A stretch of DNA of 64,000 nt from Beroe forskalii (taxonomy: Eukaryota > Ctenophora > Nuda > Beroida > Beroidae), in NCBI GenBank assembly GCA_011033025.1, contig WFMF01000498.1:1-64000 (forward strand), in the 5' to 3' direction. The position numbers were made by a program, and so were the translations under genes. The notes under the pieces were generated by a model, which saw only the letters and a list, made by a program, of their open reading frames with translations, searched no databases and was not told the DNA's origin. Positions 13,047 to 37,300 of this stretch are shown piece after piece; the first letter of the stretch is position 1, and every line of letters begins with the position of its first letter.

Positions 13047-13343
13047 TCATGATTCCGGAGGATTTGTCACAGTCAACTCGTCTGCCTCTTCGATGCTCGA
13101 TAAGTCCGAGCAATCGTCCGTTTTGTTGCGCATGTTTTTCCGCTTCTCGGCGGCCGCCAGAATAGCGTTCCTATCCTCGTTATCCGGACTGTCGGACAGA
13201 GAGCAGCGCGGTGACTCCGGGATGCGGTTGAAGTAGTACATGCGGTTGTCGTTGAGTTGGTTCAGCATGTCCTGACAGAACGGGTACATGAGTTCACCCA
13301 ACGTCTCCCAGAGGGGCAGCACGATGAAGTCGATGAAACCAAC
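13047..13343 (-). CDS. PDE4: PDE4 last coding exon
   Basis: Starts after TTTAG with Val-Gly-Phe-Ile-Asp-Phe-Ile, the segment just after the invariant Gln, and runs 98 residues to a TGA at 13047-13049. [18 protein letters not shown] ends the catalytic fold. The tail is charged ([24 protein letters not shown]) and ends NPPES. The acceptor is preceded by two copies of a 14 bp TCCTCCCTAACCCC unit holding branch-point-like CTAAC. Confidence 0.92.
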   Translation of the reverse strand, partial: VGFIDFIVLPLWETLGELMYPFCQDMLNQLNDNRMYYFNRIPESPRCSLSDSPDNEDRNAILAAAEKRKNMRNKTDDCSDLSSIEEADELTVTNPPES

Positions 13344-16300
13344 CTAAAGGGGAAGGGGTTAGGGAGGAGGGGTTAGGGAGGAAGGGTAAACTGCTGAGGC
13401 CTGGTAGTAAACTCGGTCTCGAGATACTAACAAGGGTACACCCAGTGGGCCAACTTTTGCAATGATTCACGTTAATGAGAAGATAAGATTAAGACGGGTA
13501 AGAAACGTAAGGACTCGTATGTTAGGTTTATGCAATGTATGTGCTGTGCAGTGTATAGTGCTATAGTGTACACTGTACACTGTACTTGTAGTGCTTTACC
13601 TGAGACTTCTCAATCGAAGTGGTGTGTCTATCACACATGGGGCTGATGGTGAGGCCCAGTTCCCGCTCCCTATCCCCTTGCTGGTGGAACTCCTCTATTA
13701 TCTTCTCCGTCCACGCCCGGTAGATCGGCATCGCTTTGGTGGCGGAGCTGATGTCGCAAGAGTGCACGATGCCTTGCAACACCTGGGATGGAAAATAAAA
13801 AACATGGCCCGAAACAGATAACAAGCCATCAAGGGTTTTACCTCATTACCCCAGGGCCTAAGGCCTGGTATTCCTGCATTCTTAATTGGCGACAAACTGC
13901 CATTTTTCGGTAGTTCTATTTTGCTCTCCACACATATGATCTACTCGACTAATCATTTCCTTGCGTTTGACTAACCAGCATCCTCTCGTTGTAGCTCTCC
14001 AGCACCAGTTTCCCATTGTGGGCCACCTTGCTGCTCTCCACAGTAGTCTTGATGTCTGCCATTAGAGACAGGTGTTTGGACATGTCAGTAGCCAGGACGA
14101 GGTCTATGACCATCTTCCTGAAGAGTTGGCGCTGCTTGTCCGGCATCCCTGCCGCCCAGTTCAACTCGTCGTTCTGCGGAGGAAGGGCAATTAATAGGGG
14201 AGAATATCACTCAAATACATGTGTACATGGTACATGTTTCTATCGATGAAGGAATCCTGTACGGAGCCCTACGGTTTCAGTCCTTGCACAGCAAGGATTT
14301 ACTCCGCATTAGTCAGGCGAGGCACCTGTTCACTTCTCTCCACTCCTCCCAGGACGAATGTCAATAACCCATTCATTAGTTGACACACGTTATTAACATA
14401 TCAAGGGTATTTTATTGCATTTCCCTTCATAAAGGAAACCCTGCCATAACCAGACTTCTTACCTCGACAGTAACTCAGTAATGAGTGTAACTTTATGACG
14501 TTTGTCATTAGGGCTGCAAATGTACAACCCCATTTTTTCTTTTCTAGAAATATGGCGATAAAAGCCTCAAGTTGGGTTTTAAAACTCTTCAAAAATGTGC
14601 CAAAATACGCAGGAGAAATGTTAAACTGAAAATGCACTGTCCCCCTAGAACAGGGAGATACAAATAGGGGATGAAATGTACATTGGAGTGTGTACATTGG
14701 AGTGTGCCTACAAATCTCAGTAGGTATCAGACAACTACCCTATCTAAAACAAGACTAAATCACACATAACTTCATGCGTTCTGAAAGCACACCCCAAACA
14801 CCCCCGTTACCTGCATGAACTTGAAGGCAGTAGCCAGGTGGTGGTTCTCCAGGACCGCATGGTCGTTGTACAGGATGGCCAGGTCGTTGCTAGTGTTTGA
14901 GAGGAACTGGTTGCTGAGCCCAGGGTGGTCCACATCGTGTATAGCACACGCGTACAAAGCAGCAAACACTTCCAGATCCGTGAATACTTGCTGAAATAGT
15001 AGTGTTACCTCGACTACATCCTAGCAACACTACCTCGACTACTTGGTGTCCTAGCAACTCTACCTCCACTACTGGGTATCCAAGCAACCCTACCTCGACT
15101 ACTGGGTATCCTAGCAACCTTACCTCGACTACGGGGTATCCAAGCAACATTACCTCGACTACTGGATATCCTAGCAACCTTACCTCGACTACTGGGTATC
15201 CTAGTAACACTATCTCGACAACTAAGTATCCAAGCAACACTACATGGGTATCCTCCCAACCCTACCTCGACTACTGGTATCCTAGCAACACTACCTCGCC
15301 TACTGGGCATCCTAGCAACACTACCTCCACTACTGGGTATCCAAGCAACCTTACCTCGACTAATGGGTGTCCTAGCAACTCTACCTCAACTAGTGGGTAC
15401 CCTAGCAACCCTACCTCGACTACTGGGTATCCTAGCAACCCTACCTCGACTACTGGTATCCTAGCAACACTACCTCCACTACTTGGCATCCTAGCAACAC
15501 TACCTCCACTACTGGGTATCCCAGCAACCCTACCTCGACTACTGGTATCTAAGCAACCCTACCTCGACTACTGGGTATCCTAGCAACCCTACCTCGACTA
15601 CTGGGTATCCTAGCAACCCTACCTCGACTACTGGTATCCTAGCAACCTTACCTCGACTATTGGGTATCCAAGCAACCTTACCTCGACTACTGGGTATCCT
15701 AGCAACACTAACTGGGTGTCCTAGCAACCTTACCTCGACTACTGGGTATACTAGCAACACTATTTCGACTACTGGTATCCAAGCAACCTTACCTCGACTA
15801 CTGGGTATCCTAGCAACCCTACCTCGACTACTGGGTATCCTAGCAACCTTACCTCGACTACTGGGTATCCAAGCAACCTTACCTCGACTACTGGGTATCC
15901 TAGCAACACTAACTGGGTATCCTAGCAACTCTACCTCGACTACTGGATATCCTAGGAGCACATGACAGGACTGCATGACGTCTGCACCATGGGTGGCGTT
16001 GTGGTAGGGGTTGGTTTTGTGGTAGCTGCCTTCAATAACGAACATGTACTTTATGAAGGTGGGTATGTCCACACTGAACTGCCGCAACATGTCTCGCTCC
16101 TGAGAAATATTTGGTTAGGTCTTTGGGGGAAGGGAAGGTGTAAACCATGAGGCTACAGAGAAAGAAGGGTTTTCCAGTGACTAAATGAAATTATTTGAAG
16201 TTGTACTCAAAAGCAAATGCTCCAAATAATGGGCGGGGAAGTTTGAAATTTCTCAATTTTCTGAGAAAGGATAGAATTAAGAAATTATTTTCAAAATCAC

Positions 16301-19300
16301 GGGAAACCCGAGCAATGCTCCCAAGAAGCATTCTGAGTTATAGCGAATAATTTTGAAAATATTGAATCATTATTTTCAAATTATTTTGTCATTATCATCG
16401 AATTAGCATGCTTTGTGATATTTTCACAGCACTGCCCACAGTTCCACTCCCATAGGCCAGTGATACATTCAAGTGGTGGTATCACTTAGTGTGGACCGGT
16501 GTGGACAGTGGTATTTTCAAAAGATTTTCTAGCATGGAATTCATGAGGCTCTGCACAATTTAGCATGAAATTCATCCAGAAAAACGTCCCGTCGTCCCAT
16601 GAAACTTGTGGGACTACTTACTTTTTTACATTTCAGATGTAATTTAATAATAATAATTCTAATTCTCAACTTATCGTTACCTGAGAGAGCACGACGTAGC
16701 TGAGGGCGACTAGGGGGTGGTCTTTGGTGATCCTCGCGAACTTGAACATGTCGAAGTTCCAGATGCTGATTTCAGAGACCAGCTGGGCCATTGCCTCCTC
16801 GCACTCCACCTGCAGAGGGGGTGGGTTCAGCTTGAGCAAACACACAAACGCAGTACACACAAACAAAGTACACAAAATTAGAAACACAATCAATCGCTGG
16901 AGTAAGTGAAGCATCAGGGTTTATTCTTTCATAGGAGTATTTTGGCGATGTGGATGCGTGTATTGATAACCCGTAGTGTATGACATTTGCTGGATATAAC
17001 AACTTGTCAGTTTTCTTTAGAAGGCATTGTGCTAACTGATAGTATTGACATTTTTGTCATTAAGTAAGATACAGTTGAAGTTATCTGTAACTTTAATTAG
17101 ATGAGAAAGCATCTGATTTGACAGCAGTCTCTAAGAAATAAGAAGGAAGCACCCTGGACAATAGGCGGTATAAGATAACGATAACATCAAGTTTTAAAGT
17201 TTGGAGTCAACTCCTGGGGATATTCCTATTTCAAACTCCCACTCATCCTAACGATAACTCCCACACTTTGAGGGACTGTCACAATCCCTAACTCTTTCTC
17301 AGAGTCTCTGAGAATCAGAATGTCACAAACCTCGACTCCGTACTTTGGGAGGTTTCCCTTGAGAGCTTGAGATGCTTGGTTTATAATACGCTTCGTCACG
17401 ATCATCGGTATCCGGTTCTGAAGATATGGAATGTCATATGAAACTGAAGATTGAAGAATCATAAGATCATATCTCAAAAATCTGCCCAGCAAGGTATGGA
17501 ACAGAATAATCACTCGCCATTAGCTCTTTTCCCAGTAATAACCTTGGTTTTCTCCAAGTCGAGTTCGTCCTCCCCTCTCTCGAAGTAGGTGTTTGATACC
17601 CACTCTGCCACTTGGTTCCCAGACTTAGAAGTCTCTGAGAAGTGGGAGAGTTCGCGCGTCAACATCCGCTTGAACTGAGGAAGAGAGTTTTTATAAGTCA
17701 ACTAATAAAACCAGTGAATGAAATCTAAGTTGACAGGGATCATTTTGAGGTTGAAACTTGTAAACGATTGGTTGCGAATCATGATCGATGATTGCTCTGG
17801 CATAGTGTAACACAACATATCGCGGTCCACATGTTACAAAAGTGCGAATTTCCCTCCAGATACCTTGGTTTGGGCCATTTCTCCGACGCTGTTTCTGGCT
17901 TTGATCTTGTTGAGGTGTTCCAGAACCCAGTCTATATCAGTGAGCCCCTCCAAAAGCATTCTCTGCTGGTCCTTGCCTGTCAGTCGCGCTGCCTCGTTAA
18001 CTCTGCGAATGGGGTGCTGGTTAAATACAGACTCAATGATATTGAATGGGGGTGCTGGTGAACACAGACTCAATGATATTGAATGGGGGTGATGGTGAGG
18101 AACGGTAAGGTGAACTAAAGAAAATAGAATACTTGCAATCTGAATATATAGCGAGGTGGGGTTAGGTACCGACTACCGAAATACTCAATGATGTCGGTAA
18201 ACTTCCACGAATGATTTAGGGAGAAAACAACGGAGAGTACTCAGAACAAGAAATTTCCTTGTGTTTGACTTACTCCGTGTTCTCATCTACAGGCAAGGTA
18301 GTTAGCGTGCTCATCATGTGTCGGACATCTCTGAGTCGAGCTAGGATCTGAGCGAAGGGAGTGACTATAATGTCGTCCAAACCGTTCCTGCAAAACATGG
18401 AAATGGTAGGGGTTATTATCAATGAAGGAATAAAAAGGAAAGGAAGCCATGGGTATTACAATAAGGTGGAGGCTGCAATGGGGAAATTATATTCAACTTA
18501 GTGAAAGCTTGAACAGTAAAATCAAAGCCAACTAAATGATACTAATGATACAGTCGAAACTAATGCAAACTTACTCTCGGAGGATAACGGACACAGAGGG
18601 GAATATGCGACTTGAAAATCAACAATTTGAAATTGACTATATCAGAGCTTCAAGATTCCGGGAAAGAATAGTACATCCTTGTCTTGGATTTTATGAAAAA
18701 CACTTGCTCACAATTATAAATCTGAGTAGCGCGTAATTTGATAGACTAGACCGAACTTCTCGGTACTTTTCATCATAAATTACGCTGGAGATAACAAATG
18801 AACATCACATAATTTGGCAGGGCGCCAAGGCTTTTTGAGAAATGAAGAATTTGAAATAATCAAGAATTAATTATTTATGCATGAGTCTGATCTCTTGGGA
18901 AATATTTTTCATTTATGAGTTCTTTGTGATATGTAGGGAGTATGTCTTTAATCAATGGGTTGTAAATCAAATTGAAAAACTCAGATTTCTAGTGACACTC
19001 AACAGAAAAAAGGAGTAGTGATAAGACTTGGATTTCAGAATCATTCCTAGAATTATTGATAATTTTGCTTAATTTGCAGACAGAACGAAGACACATTCAA
19101 CACGTGAGGGATCTTCCTGAACGCCTCACCACGGAACACCACGGCCATGCTCAACGAAAATATGCTTTTTCCGATGTTACCTTTCAATCACACTTTCCCT
19201 TCGCGGGGGTTGCAAGCCAGACTTTCCTCTGGAAATGGGTGGACTATTCAAAAACTTGCAGTTGCCATCCGACATTGAACGAACAACTAAACACACAAAA

Positions 19301-31300: not shown

Positions 31301-34300
31301 AGCCTATCAAGTGTGCGGCAGTAAATAAGTAACAACTTCTCAGTATTCCTTCCGGTGGGAATTAACAAATCAAGAACCAATTCAATTAATGACTTGGAAC
31401 TTCAGTAAACTGCCCGTACAAAGATATTTAAACAACAAAGATATTGATCCTGTTTAATCTTGTTTATTGAAACATCAATGAAACAATATCAGATCGTCCC
31501 CTTATATTGGCTTCAATTTCTATATTTACAACACTAGTTAACAATATCAAGATAATATCACGCGACTCAGATTAAATTGAGAGATTGTATTTGTTTGGTA
31601 ATCTTTGTTTTTGTTGTCTATCCTTTGAGTAATTTCATAATCACTCCGTAATCTGATTATTACTGTTTCTGTGATAAAGATTAATCAGAAACCCCTATTG
31701 AAAGGGGTTTCTGATCTTGATCAAGATCACATACGAGCAAGCAGTAAGAACATGCGCACAAAAAGTATTGGTACGCGGTCGACATCAATTCGACCCCTGA
31801 TAACGCCGTTTGTCGTTACTAAACCCCCATTTCAGCTCTGACAGTCTCTAGGAATGTTAAAACAGCCGGGCGCCGGCAGTAACGTGGGATCAGCACCAGA
31901 AACCCTTGCTGTGGCAGCGTTCCCCCAGCAAAGTCAGGAAACTAGCAAAGTCAGGAAACTCAAACTACACGAGCACCGTAAGAAGCTCTAGAAGGGTAAA
32001 TGTCGCGGAAAAGGCCAATAAACTCGCATACTACTTTATTGGATTTAATGAAGTGTGCATATATTACTATGAGAGTCACAAAACCAAGTCGTTTGATGTC
32101 ACAATAACGTAGCAACGTGGTGCTGCCTTCTTACGTTTAGTCAGCCGTGTATAACCCATAATATTATGTGGGCACATGGATCGATAAAAACGCGTTCAAA
32201 TACTGTATTTTTGACAGAAATTTTATGAAAAGTAAATTGCAAGCACTTTAAAATGCACGTCTTTATCAATCCCTCCATCGATGGATGAATGTGCACACAT
32301 ATGGGTTACGCTATATATCATATGTACACACGATGTATAAAGTTAATCAGACGAACACAGCGCACATATTGGGGAGCGAAGTGGGCTCTAGCAATAAGGA
32401 CGTGTCAACACAGAATGTACATTAAGCATAGGGGGAGGGGTACGACAATTTACAACGCGTGTGAAATAAAATGTATAGGCTGCACATTGCACAATGTATA
32501 ATGTATATACTGTTCATTATTTCAAGCACTTTTTCCGAGTTTAACCCTTTTAAATAAATTTTAATATACAATTACATTCCCATGGTTGATTTCTATGTTC
32601 GAAGCATGTCCACAATCCATCTCATTGCATTTCGAGTGCTCACAATTACATTATTACAGCGTCCGATCAAACAGTCATGAGAGACCCACCGCCACTCAAG
32701 GAATTGTTACTCCCAGCCTTTTCTATTGCGAGGCATAAAGTAAATTTCATCCTCAACATTAATCTCCTCGATGTCATCAAGCTGAATCTCCTCATAGTCA
32801 TCAAGCAGAACCTCTTCATAGTCCTGATCGCCGTATAAGGGTATTGGGGTGGGTCTCCGGTAGGCCGGGCTGGCGCTGCTGGACATAGAGGTGGCGTCCT
32901 CCGGTCTGCGAGTCATGGGGGTCACCACTTGGCAATCATCCAACGCTGACTGCAGATCCATCCCAATGTGGAGAGTCTTGATACTCTCCGACCCCCACAA
33001 GCCATCTGCGCAATACTGTTCCACCTCCGCAGCTGCAGTGGAGAATATGGGGTGTCCCACGCAGCTCCCATCCTCGCTCACCCTGTATATTCCCGCTCCA
33101 CGGACACTGTTAGTGCAGTTGTGTCTGTACTTAGCCTCGCTTTGCAGAGCGTTGAAGATGTACCATGGTCCCAGGGACTCGTCCACAACGAACAGGTTCT
33201 CAAGGCCGTTGTAGGACTCGAAGCTGGTGTAGTTGAAGATGATCCAGCCGTTCTCATCCGTCTCCAGGGTTATGTTGTTATACAGCCCTGCCATATAGGA
33301 ATCGTAGCCAGAGTTAGGGTTATTGAGGAAGGGGCACCTGCGAGCCACCACCATCATGCCCATCGGTTTCGACCCCAGTCCGTCCATCCCCGGCTTGACC
33401 CCCAAACGCATCGCGTAGTCCACGTAGTAGCTCATACGGACAAAGTAAGGGTAAATTTGGGCGAGGGAGCTGATCCCAAAGTCCCACCAATTCCTCAGGT
33501 AGTTTGTGAAGGCGCAGTAGACCCGGGTGTTCTGAGCCTCCGCCTCGTACCCCATCATCTCGCCGTGATAGACCGGGGGCAGCCCTGTTGGCAGGTCGGA
33601 TGTGAAGCCGAACAAGTTCATGCCATCACTGTGCACCAAGTCAGTGGTGGGAAGGGGCATGTAGGTGGTGGTAGGGGTGTCTCCCTGCGGGGGAGGGATG
33701 GAACTCCCCCCGTCCACGTACCCTGAGACTATCTCCAACATCTGCTCCAGATACTCCTGCTCCTGCTCCAGCACCCACGCAGTCAACTCCTCCTCGAACT
33801 GTCGCGTCTCCTCCTTCATAGCGTCTATCTCGGGTTTCAGACCCTTCAGGATCTCTACCGTAGCTTTATCTCGCACTGCGTCGTTGAGAACTCGGTGGAA
33901 GTCCTCAGAATCCACGTAGTCGGACACATCCGCCTGAGCCTCTGCCTCCTCCACTATCGTCTGAAACTCAGGGCTCTTGAGATACGGGCAAATCACTTCC
34001 TGTCTGAAGTGGGGGTCTTTGATCAGAGGCTCATAGAACTGCTCGTCTGAACAGCTGGCTCGGAGCTCATCGAATGTTTGGAGGCATTCGTCAGAGGGCG
34101 GATCGGTGGTTGTGTGGTCTGAGCAAGGAAGAAGTTCCCCGTTGTATGCGCCATCCTTATGCGCCATGCCGACTATGTCAACCCCAAGAACTACACTAGC
34201 GAGCAGGGACAATAGAAGTGCAAACATTACTAAGCTGCTGTATCGGGAAATAGGAGCAAGTAGTGGTGGCTGAGTAGAGGAGTCCACTTAGAGTGCACTT

Positions 34301-37300
34301 AGAGCAATCCTCCCACTGTTTACTTGTTTATGGGTCGCAATGGGTCGTTTCCTATAACCGGTAAGAAGCACATGCAGTACATGGCAAAGTGGCGCTATTT
34401 AATAGCTGATTGATCACACAATACAACGCTATCAACCATTCAACTTCGGGAGGGGATGAGACCGATGAGAACAATTTGATCCAACAATCATCTGAATGCG
34501 CGCCCCGACACGGGACACTAATTCAATGATCAATCCATGTCACTGCCGAACCACCACGAAGGGACAAATAAAATCAACAATTATCACTCTTCTCGCAAAA
34601 AATATTAACAAGAAACTACGTTTCAACGTGAAATTTTATACGGGACTCTTTATAATATTGCAGATAGTTTATTCTGTGCTGTGGATATGTATAGAATATC
34701 GCGGTGACCGAACACGTCAGCAGAAATCTTAACATGCATATATTCGCTATATAGGCGTAGCGCCAGTGAATTTCACCGTGTTGTTTGTTGTGATAAGTTG
34801 CATCTAATTACGTCGATTAACTTGTACCTTAAAATTGATGACCAAACACCTTTAAGAATTGTAGCAATATTCCATGATAACCGATGGACCTGTAATTTGT
34901 AAGTGAGATTAAAATGAAGCGAACAGAAGAAGTGGCGCGCAACTCAATCAACAAAACTGATCACAGATCACCAATCTTTTGAGCAGGACAAATTTAAGCA
35001 GGTTTGCCAGTAATATAGTTATCACAGCACTCCAGCGGTTTCACTAATTAATTAAGGAAAGGATTATGGAGATCATGATGGTTATCATTGGATCAGTTAT
35101 CAGTATGTCTCTGAAAACCTACCGCGATCGTAATTTCTGATAATCGAAGTTTTAAATTTGCAGTGCACCGATGAATTAAAAGTAGCTATCAACTTCAGCG
35201 CACTTCCACGCACTTCTGCAGTTTTCTTGAATAGCCTACATCTGCTAGGATTTCTCAATAATCGGCCGATTTCTCACAAGCATAAATGTTCCAAATAGAA
35301 TAGACAAATCGGAAAAGGTGTGTGCGACACTATAATTGTGATTTGGCAATGGTCTCAAGTTCTCGGTTAAATTATTCTGCAGAACCTGGAAACATATATA
35401 TCGCAACCACAACAACACAACTTCAGAACCAAGTGATGGGAGTTTCTCTAATACAATGGACAATTTCACCGTGTCAAGTTATGGCATGATAAGGAACATT
35501 TAAAGAGATAAGAATAATGAGAATTGGTGGTTTGGCCCTCTTCCCCAATAGAAAAAAAAAACGATAATTATCTCACAGCAATGTGAGAGATGAGTCTTGA
35601 GTTTTCAAAAATAAAGTATTTCGAATCGGCTAGATCTACACGATAAACAGGCGCAATATTCAAGAAACGTAAGTCAGATAATAAAGCACTTCAAATATTT
35701 GGCAGCTGTCAGCATTCGGTCTGTTCCGTATAGTGGTTGACAGTATGACGCACTTTTATTGGTGGAAACTGTCCAGTATTGACAGGGAGTTTACAAGATG
35801 TCACAGTATATCTTCATTTCCGTTGCCAGTTCAAGATGTCAACACTTCGCTTTGAATTTTTGTGAAAAAAAAGTTTTCAAATAATTTTCAGTTTTAAATG
35901 GGTAACCGATTAATTCAGTTCTCAGATCTCGTGTATTTCAATTTCTGGACTACAAAACTGCTATGCTTTTCAATGGAGAAATCATGATAAAGCATTCACG
36001 ATTTCACGACAATCTTTTATTGACGGCGTGTTATCTTACCCACAGGTCCAAATGACAGTGACCAATCAGCCTGCCAGTTGAGGGAACACTCGCGGTCAAT
36101 ATCATTAAGATTCCGAGGTCCAACAGGTAAGCTAATACGCCTCCGATCACCGATATTGATAACCAATAACCAATTAGCACACACCAATTAACCAATTAGC
36201 ACACACCAATTAACCAATTAGCACACACCAATTAACCAATCAGCACACATCAATAAACCAATCAGCACCTATCTGATTGTTGACCTCGTTTCCTCCCTCC
36301 TTGTCATGACCATCTGATCCGTCCTCCGCGAAGGATAGCCTGAAATAACACCGAGGTTAGTGACTGGAGTAATAACGAGGTTAGTGACTGGAGTAATAAC
36401 GAGGTTAGTGACTGGAGTAATAACGAGGTTAGTGACTGGAGTAATAACGAGGTTAGTGACTGGAGTAATAACGAGGTTAGTGACTGGAGTAATAACGAGG
36501 TTAGTGACTGGAGTAATAACAAGGTTAGTGACTGGAGTAATAACGAGGTTAGGGACTGGAGTAATAACGAGGTTAGTGACTGGAGTAATAACGAGGTTAA
36601 TGACTGAAATAAATTAAATTGGAGTAATAACGAGGTTAGTGACTGCCGTTCTGGAGTAATAACGAGGTTAGTGTGACTGGAGTGATAACGAGGTTAGTGA
36701 CTGAGTAATAAATGAGGTTAGTGACTGTAATTAGGTAATGAGTAATAACTTGGTTAGTAATTGGGTAATAGTGAAGGCCGTTAAAGCAAAGGTTGACTGC
36801 CAGCTTGGGGAAAGTTGAAATGGTTAATAATATGTTAGTATATCCACTGCTTGCAGCTGTGTGACAGTAAGGCTAGATTTGCCAGTTAGGGAGTGGATAA
36901 GGGAACTGGGAGGGTTTCATCATCGCGGGAGTGGTTAATACTTCATGTAAGGTGTACTGTCAAAAATTATTCTTTTCATCATAAGAGGGGAAATGGGAGA
37001 TTAAAGGTATATGGCGGAAATAGGATCTGAAAGCTCAAGGTATTATACCCTGTTCTCAGGATTTTATCGTAAAAATACTCCAGACAAAAGTCAGCGAAGA
37101 AATAAGTAGGTAGCTCAACATATATAATTCCTAACACACAAACTTCGGGCCTCGCGAGTTCAGATACAGATTCGTTGATTGGTAGGGAATAGGTTGGGAA
37201 TGTACTTCCGAAAGGTACCATTTTTCGGATATAGGTAGCGGAGAAGACCCTTTCGGTTCCGCTACCACGGAATAAAAAACCACGGAATAAAAAACAAATT

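Follow-up and report, generated by a model that had tools for sequence, protein, structure and literature searches.

Tandem copies of an exon end and its splice donor fill an intron of the PDE4 gene in the ctenophore Beroe forskalii

One intron of the PDE4 gene of Beroe forskalii, which encodes a cAMP-degrading enzyme, consists almost entirely of tandem copies of the end of the preceding exon together with its 5' splice site. We regard this array as a minisatellite of the mirage type known from amphioxus, which is most likely inert, with the exon-proximal donor paired with the single real acceptor; it is filed under that type because every mirage feature open to testing was found. The intron occupies the same position in other genomes, where the visible part holds no repeat, and comparable arrays recur at other genes of the same genome. 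We infer that the first donor is the donor used and that duplication was the mechanism by which the array formed. The window, as the term is used here, is the whole stretch of 64,000 nucleotides analysed (part of contig C578), and the genome searched comprises 216 Mb in 1134 contigs.

Anatomy of the PDE4 intron

The PDE4 gene lies on the minus strand of the window, and its nine modelled exons are open and in frame. The top protein match is a PDE4C-like protein of the ctenophore Bolinopsis microptera (81% identity over the modelled exons). The identity as PDE4 is borne out by a PDB match to PDE4B (4.4e-142) and by the alignment of the catalytic motifs of PDE4. The main features, in window positions, are as follows.

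13047..18002, minus strand: stretch of PDE4 reaching from UCR2 to its stop codon (gene model with nine exons, PDE4 homology)
15935..16099, minus strand: HN-motif exon, ending ..LLGYPVVE (gene model and PDE4 homology)
15929..15957, minus strand: the exon's own copy of the unit, across exon end and donor (unit splitting)
14991..15934, minus strand: intron of 944 nt, phase 0, nearly all array (same junction in unspliced and spliced relatives)
15005..15928, minus strand: 32 intronic units of about 30 bp, each with 24 nt of exon end and 6 nt of donor side (TRF and unit splitting)
15907..15928, minus strand: first intronic unit, 22 bp, without a donor (unit splitting)
15706-15727, minus strand: 22-bp unit without a donor, with the same deletion as 15907-15928 and one base different (unit splitting)
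15238-15259, minus strand: 22-bp unit without a donor (unit splitting)
14991..15004, minus strand: sole non-repeat stretch of the intron, 14 nt, CACTACTATTTCAG, holding the acceptor (sequence, unit splitting)
14811..14990, minus strand: following PDE4 exon, beginning QVFTDLEV (gene model)

The first-pass annotation had described about 33 copies of an exon end and its donor, filling an intron of about 0.95 kb, and both statements hold. TRF gives a 30-bp array of 32.2 copies (15018-15955), unit-by-unit splitting gives 33 head-to-tail copies (the exon's own and 32 in the intron), and all but the last 14 nt of the intron is taken up by them. The acceptor, TTTCAG|CAAG, sits outside the array. The unit, with the consensus TTGCTAGGATACCCAGTAGTCGAGGTARGG, is 30 bp long as annotated, and it carries eight codons (LLGYPVVE) in place of the six claimed. 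Among the 32 intronic units, 23 are 30 bp, five are 29 bp and three are 22 bp in length, and the last is partial.

Variants are common to units that are not neighbours, namely one deletion in two of the 22-bp units, the five 29-bp units, and periods of 89 and 119; such sharing out of neighbour order is what array turnover produces. With up to three mismatches allowed, a 28-base core of the unit matched no other part of the genome: all of the matches, at least 23, lay in the PDE4 array or exon end. Protein constraint on the array copies was considered and rejected: the 23 full units differ in their exon-derived part by 19 distinct changes, of which 9 are synonymous, where 31% would be expected, and the per-unit count (17 of 30) is drawn from units that share ancestry.

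A promoter scan of 14900-16100 returned nothing, nor did a tRNA scan and an Rfam scan of the window. Nine other repeat regions in the window were examined, none of which was seen to be a junction array. One array of 24-bp units (36352-36727) carries GAG|GTTAGT on the plus strand, with no coding exon seen just upstream. Elsewhere on the minus strand, a single open frame of 526 codons (32710-34287) is possibly a one-exon gene, and the open frames at 48-670 look, from their motif, like a LINE reverse transcriptase.

Donor strength, reading frame and accessibility

Three donors are given here with their window positions.

15929..15937, minus strand: the exon's own donor, GAG|GTAGAG, G+1 at 15934, U1 duplex -7.0 kcal/mol (U1 pairing)
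15877..15885, minus strand: nearest array donor, GAG|GTAAGG, G+1 at 15882, 52 nt downstream and out of frame (donor scan)
15728..15736, minus strand: first phase-0, stop-free array donor, G+1 at 15733, whose use would insert 67 residues (donor scan)

The motif GAG|GTA is kept in 27 of the 32 intronic units. The better donor GAG|GTAAGG had been annotated in at least nine units, and nine were found (G+1 at 15882, 15852, 15792, 15733, 15681, 15651, 15354, 15183 and 15123). When each unit was scored by U1 pairing, a check that had been proposed together with the annotation, 23 of the 27 array donors proved stronger than the exon's own (GTAAGG -10.1 and GTAGGG -9.8 kcal/mol); the usual U1 RNA 5' end is present in seven of eight U1 loci examined. 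Ten authentic PDE4 donors, that of the HN exon included, range from -4.1 to -8.3 kcal/mol, and GTAAGG and GTAGGG exceed all ten. The exon's own donor is thus an ordinary one, and the decoys are unusually good. Because most array donors are stronger, use of the first donor is not predicted by simple strength. Since the first intronic unit has no donor, the nearest competitor lies 52 nt downstream. Among the 28 donors, the exon's own shows the lowest pairing when the RNA is folded globally, and ranks 8th in a local fold. Low pairing in the modelled global fold would favour its use, which is suggestive at most.

As annotated, the reading frame is shifted and then restored, so that some array donors return to phase 0. 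Phase 0 without a stop is reached at four of the 27 only (15733, 15622, 15592 and 15562), and splicing there is predicted to insert 67, 104, 114 and 124 residues, respectively. From the remaining 23, a frameshift or stop would follow.

The first-pass annotation went further and proposed a ladder of competing donors, by which growth of the array could alter the enzyme. Some array donors would then be spliced at a useful rate, as in human IFI6, to give PDE4 isoforms lengthened by 67-124 residues, or else truncated products. The 23 of 27 donors that outscore the exon's own, the four that are in frame and open, and the case of IFI6, in which two downstream minisatellite repeats serve as donors (PMC4526556), all speak for such use. 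Against it, 23 of the 27 donors would lead to a frameshift or stop, the insertion would land inside the catalytic domain, the repeat peptide is found in none of three matches among 328 candidates (among the proteins examined, two or more copies occur only in our own query), relatives' proteins have no insertion, and 14 junction arrays show no clear bias towards multiples of three. We regard a used ladder as possible but unsupported, and give it a small chance of being right.

A related reading is that the array acts as a brake on dosage: low-rate use of array donors would in nearly every case lead to a premature stop and nonsense-mediated decay, and PDE4 output would fall according to array length. 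The 23 donors that would cause a frameshift or stop, many of them strong, fit this, while amphioxus mirages are reported to leave splicing undisturbed (PMC3087553). The chance that such a brake operates is slim.

Age of the intron

A search with the exon-plus-array reading frame as the query gave three matches among 328 candidates. They are ORFs from other genomes that read through the same junction (P0121, E|VSNHGYH; P0122, E|VCYFSVL; P0123, E|VSFLTFK), in which the conserved E is followed by V (GTN) and then by unrelated sequence. The repeat peptide is absent from all three over their visible intron codons (13, 27 and 49, respectively), a span that would leave room for an array deeper inside. 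P0123 is identical to P0002 over 56 residues up to the E, after which P0002 reads QVFTD; this identity followed by divergence means that one intron is seen both unspliced and spliced without an insertion. Three ctenophore-like PDE4 proteins (P0001, P0002 and P0007) have no insertion, and their species have no array as far as seen.

The same junction with unrelated sequence in other genomes makes the intron older than the array. By this comparison, the intron appears to be old, the exon end to be conserved coding sequence, and the array to have been derived from that exon end in this lineage. The first-pass annotation had held that an unrelated sequence at this junction in a related species, with the same repeat elsewhere, would count against it; the unrelated sequence was found, and the repeat was not found elsewhere in the genome.

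Could the intron itself be new, born when an exonic segment with AG|GT was duplicated in tandem? AG|GT, the signal that such models require, is present in 27 of the 32 units, but the acceptor TTTCAG|CAAG lies beyond the array, and all three ORFs of other genomes share the position of the intron, the visible part of which is free of repeats. Their intron contradicts gain by tandem duplication, and we hold a new intron to be very improbable. An RNA-structural element or an assembly artefact deserves almost no credence: copy number is often misassembled in long repeats, and the number given here is that of the assembly, but the sequence differs among units along the array, as would not be expected of a simple duplication error, and the array RNA has a fold z-score of 0.26, its stability being equalled or exceeded by 11 of 20 shuffles.

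The inert, mirage-type array that we prefer could have formed as follows. A tandem duplication of about 30 bp would have arisen across the 5' exon–intron border of an ancestral phase-0 intron, and slippage or unequal exchange would then have enlarged the array to nearly the whole intron. The spliceosome would still join the exon-proximal donor to the sole real acceptor, and transcripts would encode normal PDE4, the unit copies being removed with the intron.

Other junction arrays in the genome

Twenty other donor-motif arrays were sampled, from the first 100 places listed for two motifs and from all 53 for a strict motif. Thirteen of them (12 loci) apparently start at the end of a coding exon, one probably does, one involves an acceptor, one is antisense, and four could not be assigned; since the sample was chosen by donor motif, it shows that arrays with such a motif are frequently exon borders, and is no measure of the share of borders that have an array. 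Strong exon homology is present in three of the 13 (iPGM-like, PIKfyve-like and TRIP12-like). Six have no family match, and are placed by an open frame, an acceptor and the overlap between exon end and unit.

The first search required three AGGTRAG motifs in a row. This loose motif is not enriched (5875 places; reversed pattern, 5405); among the places listed there were six arrays in the first 3 Mb, four of which begin at an apparent coding exon end. The strict motif, AAGGTAAGT three times, occurs at 53 places against 2 reversed and gave ten arrays, nine of them new: five apparent donor-junction arrays, one probable, one acceptor array, one antisense in an intron and one without assignment. 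The probable case is at an EF-hand exon, whose frame hits a stop just before the donor. A third motif, enriched like the strict one, occurs at 377 places against 56 reversed, and among the 100 listed, most lie in two arrays of contig C77. These 100 places hold five arrays, four at exon ends, two of which are copies of one duplicated locus; no convincing match was obtained for the exons L092, L093/L094 and L095. The apparent junction arrays are listed below under putative names (VIP36, PIKfyve, TRIP12, CPEB and iPGM) drawn from family and PDB matches.

iPGM-like: ..GGAHTAHTCNR G|GTGAGG, 36-bp unit (Pfam Metalloenzyme 9.4e-10)
TRIP12-like HECT ligase: 30/36-bp unit (PDB 1.2e-7 with two joined exon translations)
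Sushi exon: 18-bp unit, about 156 copies (Pfam 0.014, below cut-off)
M1 aminopeptidase: 25-bp unit (Pfam 0.0029, below cut-off)
VIP36-like lectin: donor-junction array (Pfam 0.00094, below cut-off)
PIKfyve-like kinase: donor-junction array (Pfam PIP5K 1e-9)
Protein kinase: donor-junction array (Pfam 0.1, PDB 0.053, weak)
L090 and L091: donor-junction arrays at exons without a match
L084, C253:227950-228700, minus strand: CPEB-like, 40-bp unit with acceptor and exon start
L095, C110:120750-121450: coding-like exon with a junction array on either side, 62-bp before it (acceptor) and 27/34-bp behind it (donor)
C77:417548-420317 and C77:453471-455730: two copies of one locus in inverted orientation, each with a long 36/37-bp donor array

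Four of 56 iPGM matches were examined; P0125, P0127 and P0130 are ORFs that continue past the junction and show no array there, and the sequence of a spliced relative, HTAHTCNRVPFYMDGG, has the junction predicted here. The unit of the C77 locus is exon-like throughout. It starts with TGAGTCCC, 37 nt upstream in the exon, which coincides with the donor's TGAGT; such microhomology could account for the duplication. At L080 (C1:1945500-1951500), several long arrays adjoin (53, 30/60 and 99 bp). At L097 (C481:448100-448860), the PIKfyve-like exon start is also present in a partial upstream copy with an acceptor-like end.

Units of the other junction arrays are 18-47 bp in length. Unit length is divisible by three in six or seven of the 14 junction arrays compared, where 4.7 would be expected (P of six or more, 0.31), and selection for frame on unit length is rejected. 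The proposal that array growth changes the enzyme draws no backing from this count, nor from the amphioxus analogues, which are reported to splice normally (PMC3087553). Outside PDE4, there is no general advantage in strength of the copies over the exon's own donor: they beat it in 0 of 15 cases in iPGM, 0 of 20 in the HECT ligase, 4 of 150 at the Sushi exon and 15 of 19 in PIKfyve, a comparison of own-donor weakness that is biased by a sampling in favour of strong-donor arrays, except for PDE4, which was not so chosen. As a rough extrapolation with a wide error, four junction arrays in about 3 Mb would correspond to a few hundred in the genome.

Judged from its sequence, a normal L095 protein would require splicing at the innermost pair of sites, the last of the acceptor copies and the first of the donor copies. 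It is conceivable, if unlikely, that minisatellites arise again and again on splice junctions in this lineage and are kept because exon definition selects such an innermost acceptor–donor pair, even with dozens of equal or stronger donors present, and that the PDE4 array, with 23 of 27 copies stronger than the exon's own donor, leaks, its length tuning output or the array giving in-frame variants.

Significance

How one 5' splice site is chosen among near-identical ones is an old question, which has mostly been studied with built constructs. Junction arrays are natural experiments on this choice: each copied donor brings its upstream exon sequence with it, which leaves position as the main difference between neighbouring sites, and most of the PDE4 copies exceed in strength the site on which the protein depends. 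What is new here is the phylum and the number of genes with mirage-type arrays. The amphioxus structure is thereby extended to another animal phylum; no earlier ctenophore report is named among the open-licence papers listed, which is weak evidence of absence. The findings point to mirages as a possible general by-product wherever a genome is rich in minisatellites. They are of value because the arrays recur across genes and offer a test of splice-site choice.

Comparison with known systems

In UBC, dual-specific splice sites carry AGGT once per unit, and in the authors' view expansions with such sites can be spliced out with little harm (PMC10809524). The PDE4 unit likewise contains AGGT, whereas UBC units are coding and their sites act as both donor and acceptor; in PDE4, the real acceptor is outside the array. 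In human duplicated genes, internal tandem repeats at exon–intron borders can alter splicing, with units of 30 bp and four units on average (PMC2812944). The PDE4 array is similar in its place on an exon–intron border and in its 30-bp unit; the human repeats were found as differences between paralogues, with transcript evidence, and average four units against 32 in PDE4.

Human IFI6 (6-16, G1P3) has a shorter repeat unit than PDE4. Two of its downstream minisatellite repeats serve as donors, from which three mRNA species arise (PMC4526556). In both genes a tandem repeat with splice donors adjoins an exon; use of the repeat donors is known from mRNA in IFI6 and is hypothetical in PDE4.

The mirages of amphioxus, in Adh3 and the globins BflGb6 and BflGb9, are minisatellite-like tandem copies across exon–intron borders, with AG/GT signals in many copies, and affect 5' and 3' borders of several genes; units in Adh3 are 10-72 bp, RT-PCR is reported to suggest undisturbed regular splicing, and germline and somatic length polymorphism is a reported feature (PMC3087553). 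The PDE4 unit also straddles the border (24 exon nt and 6 intron nt), units here (30 bp in PDE4, 18-47 bp elsewhere) fall within the Adh3 range, and several genes of the genome are hit (13 of 20 sampled arrays, 12 loci). Acceptor borders are hit too, at L084 and on the 5' side of the L095 exon, not in PDE4. The amphioxus mirages are known with RT-PCR and instability data, and the PDE4 array from its sequence. It differs further in belonging to another phylum, in that its copies take up almost all of the intron, and in that most of them outrank the exon's own donor.
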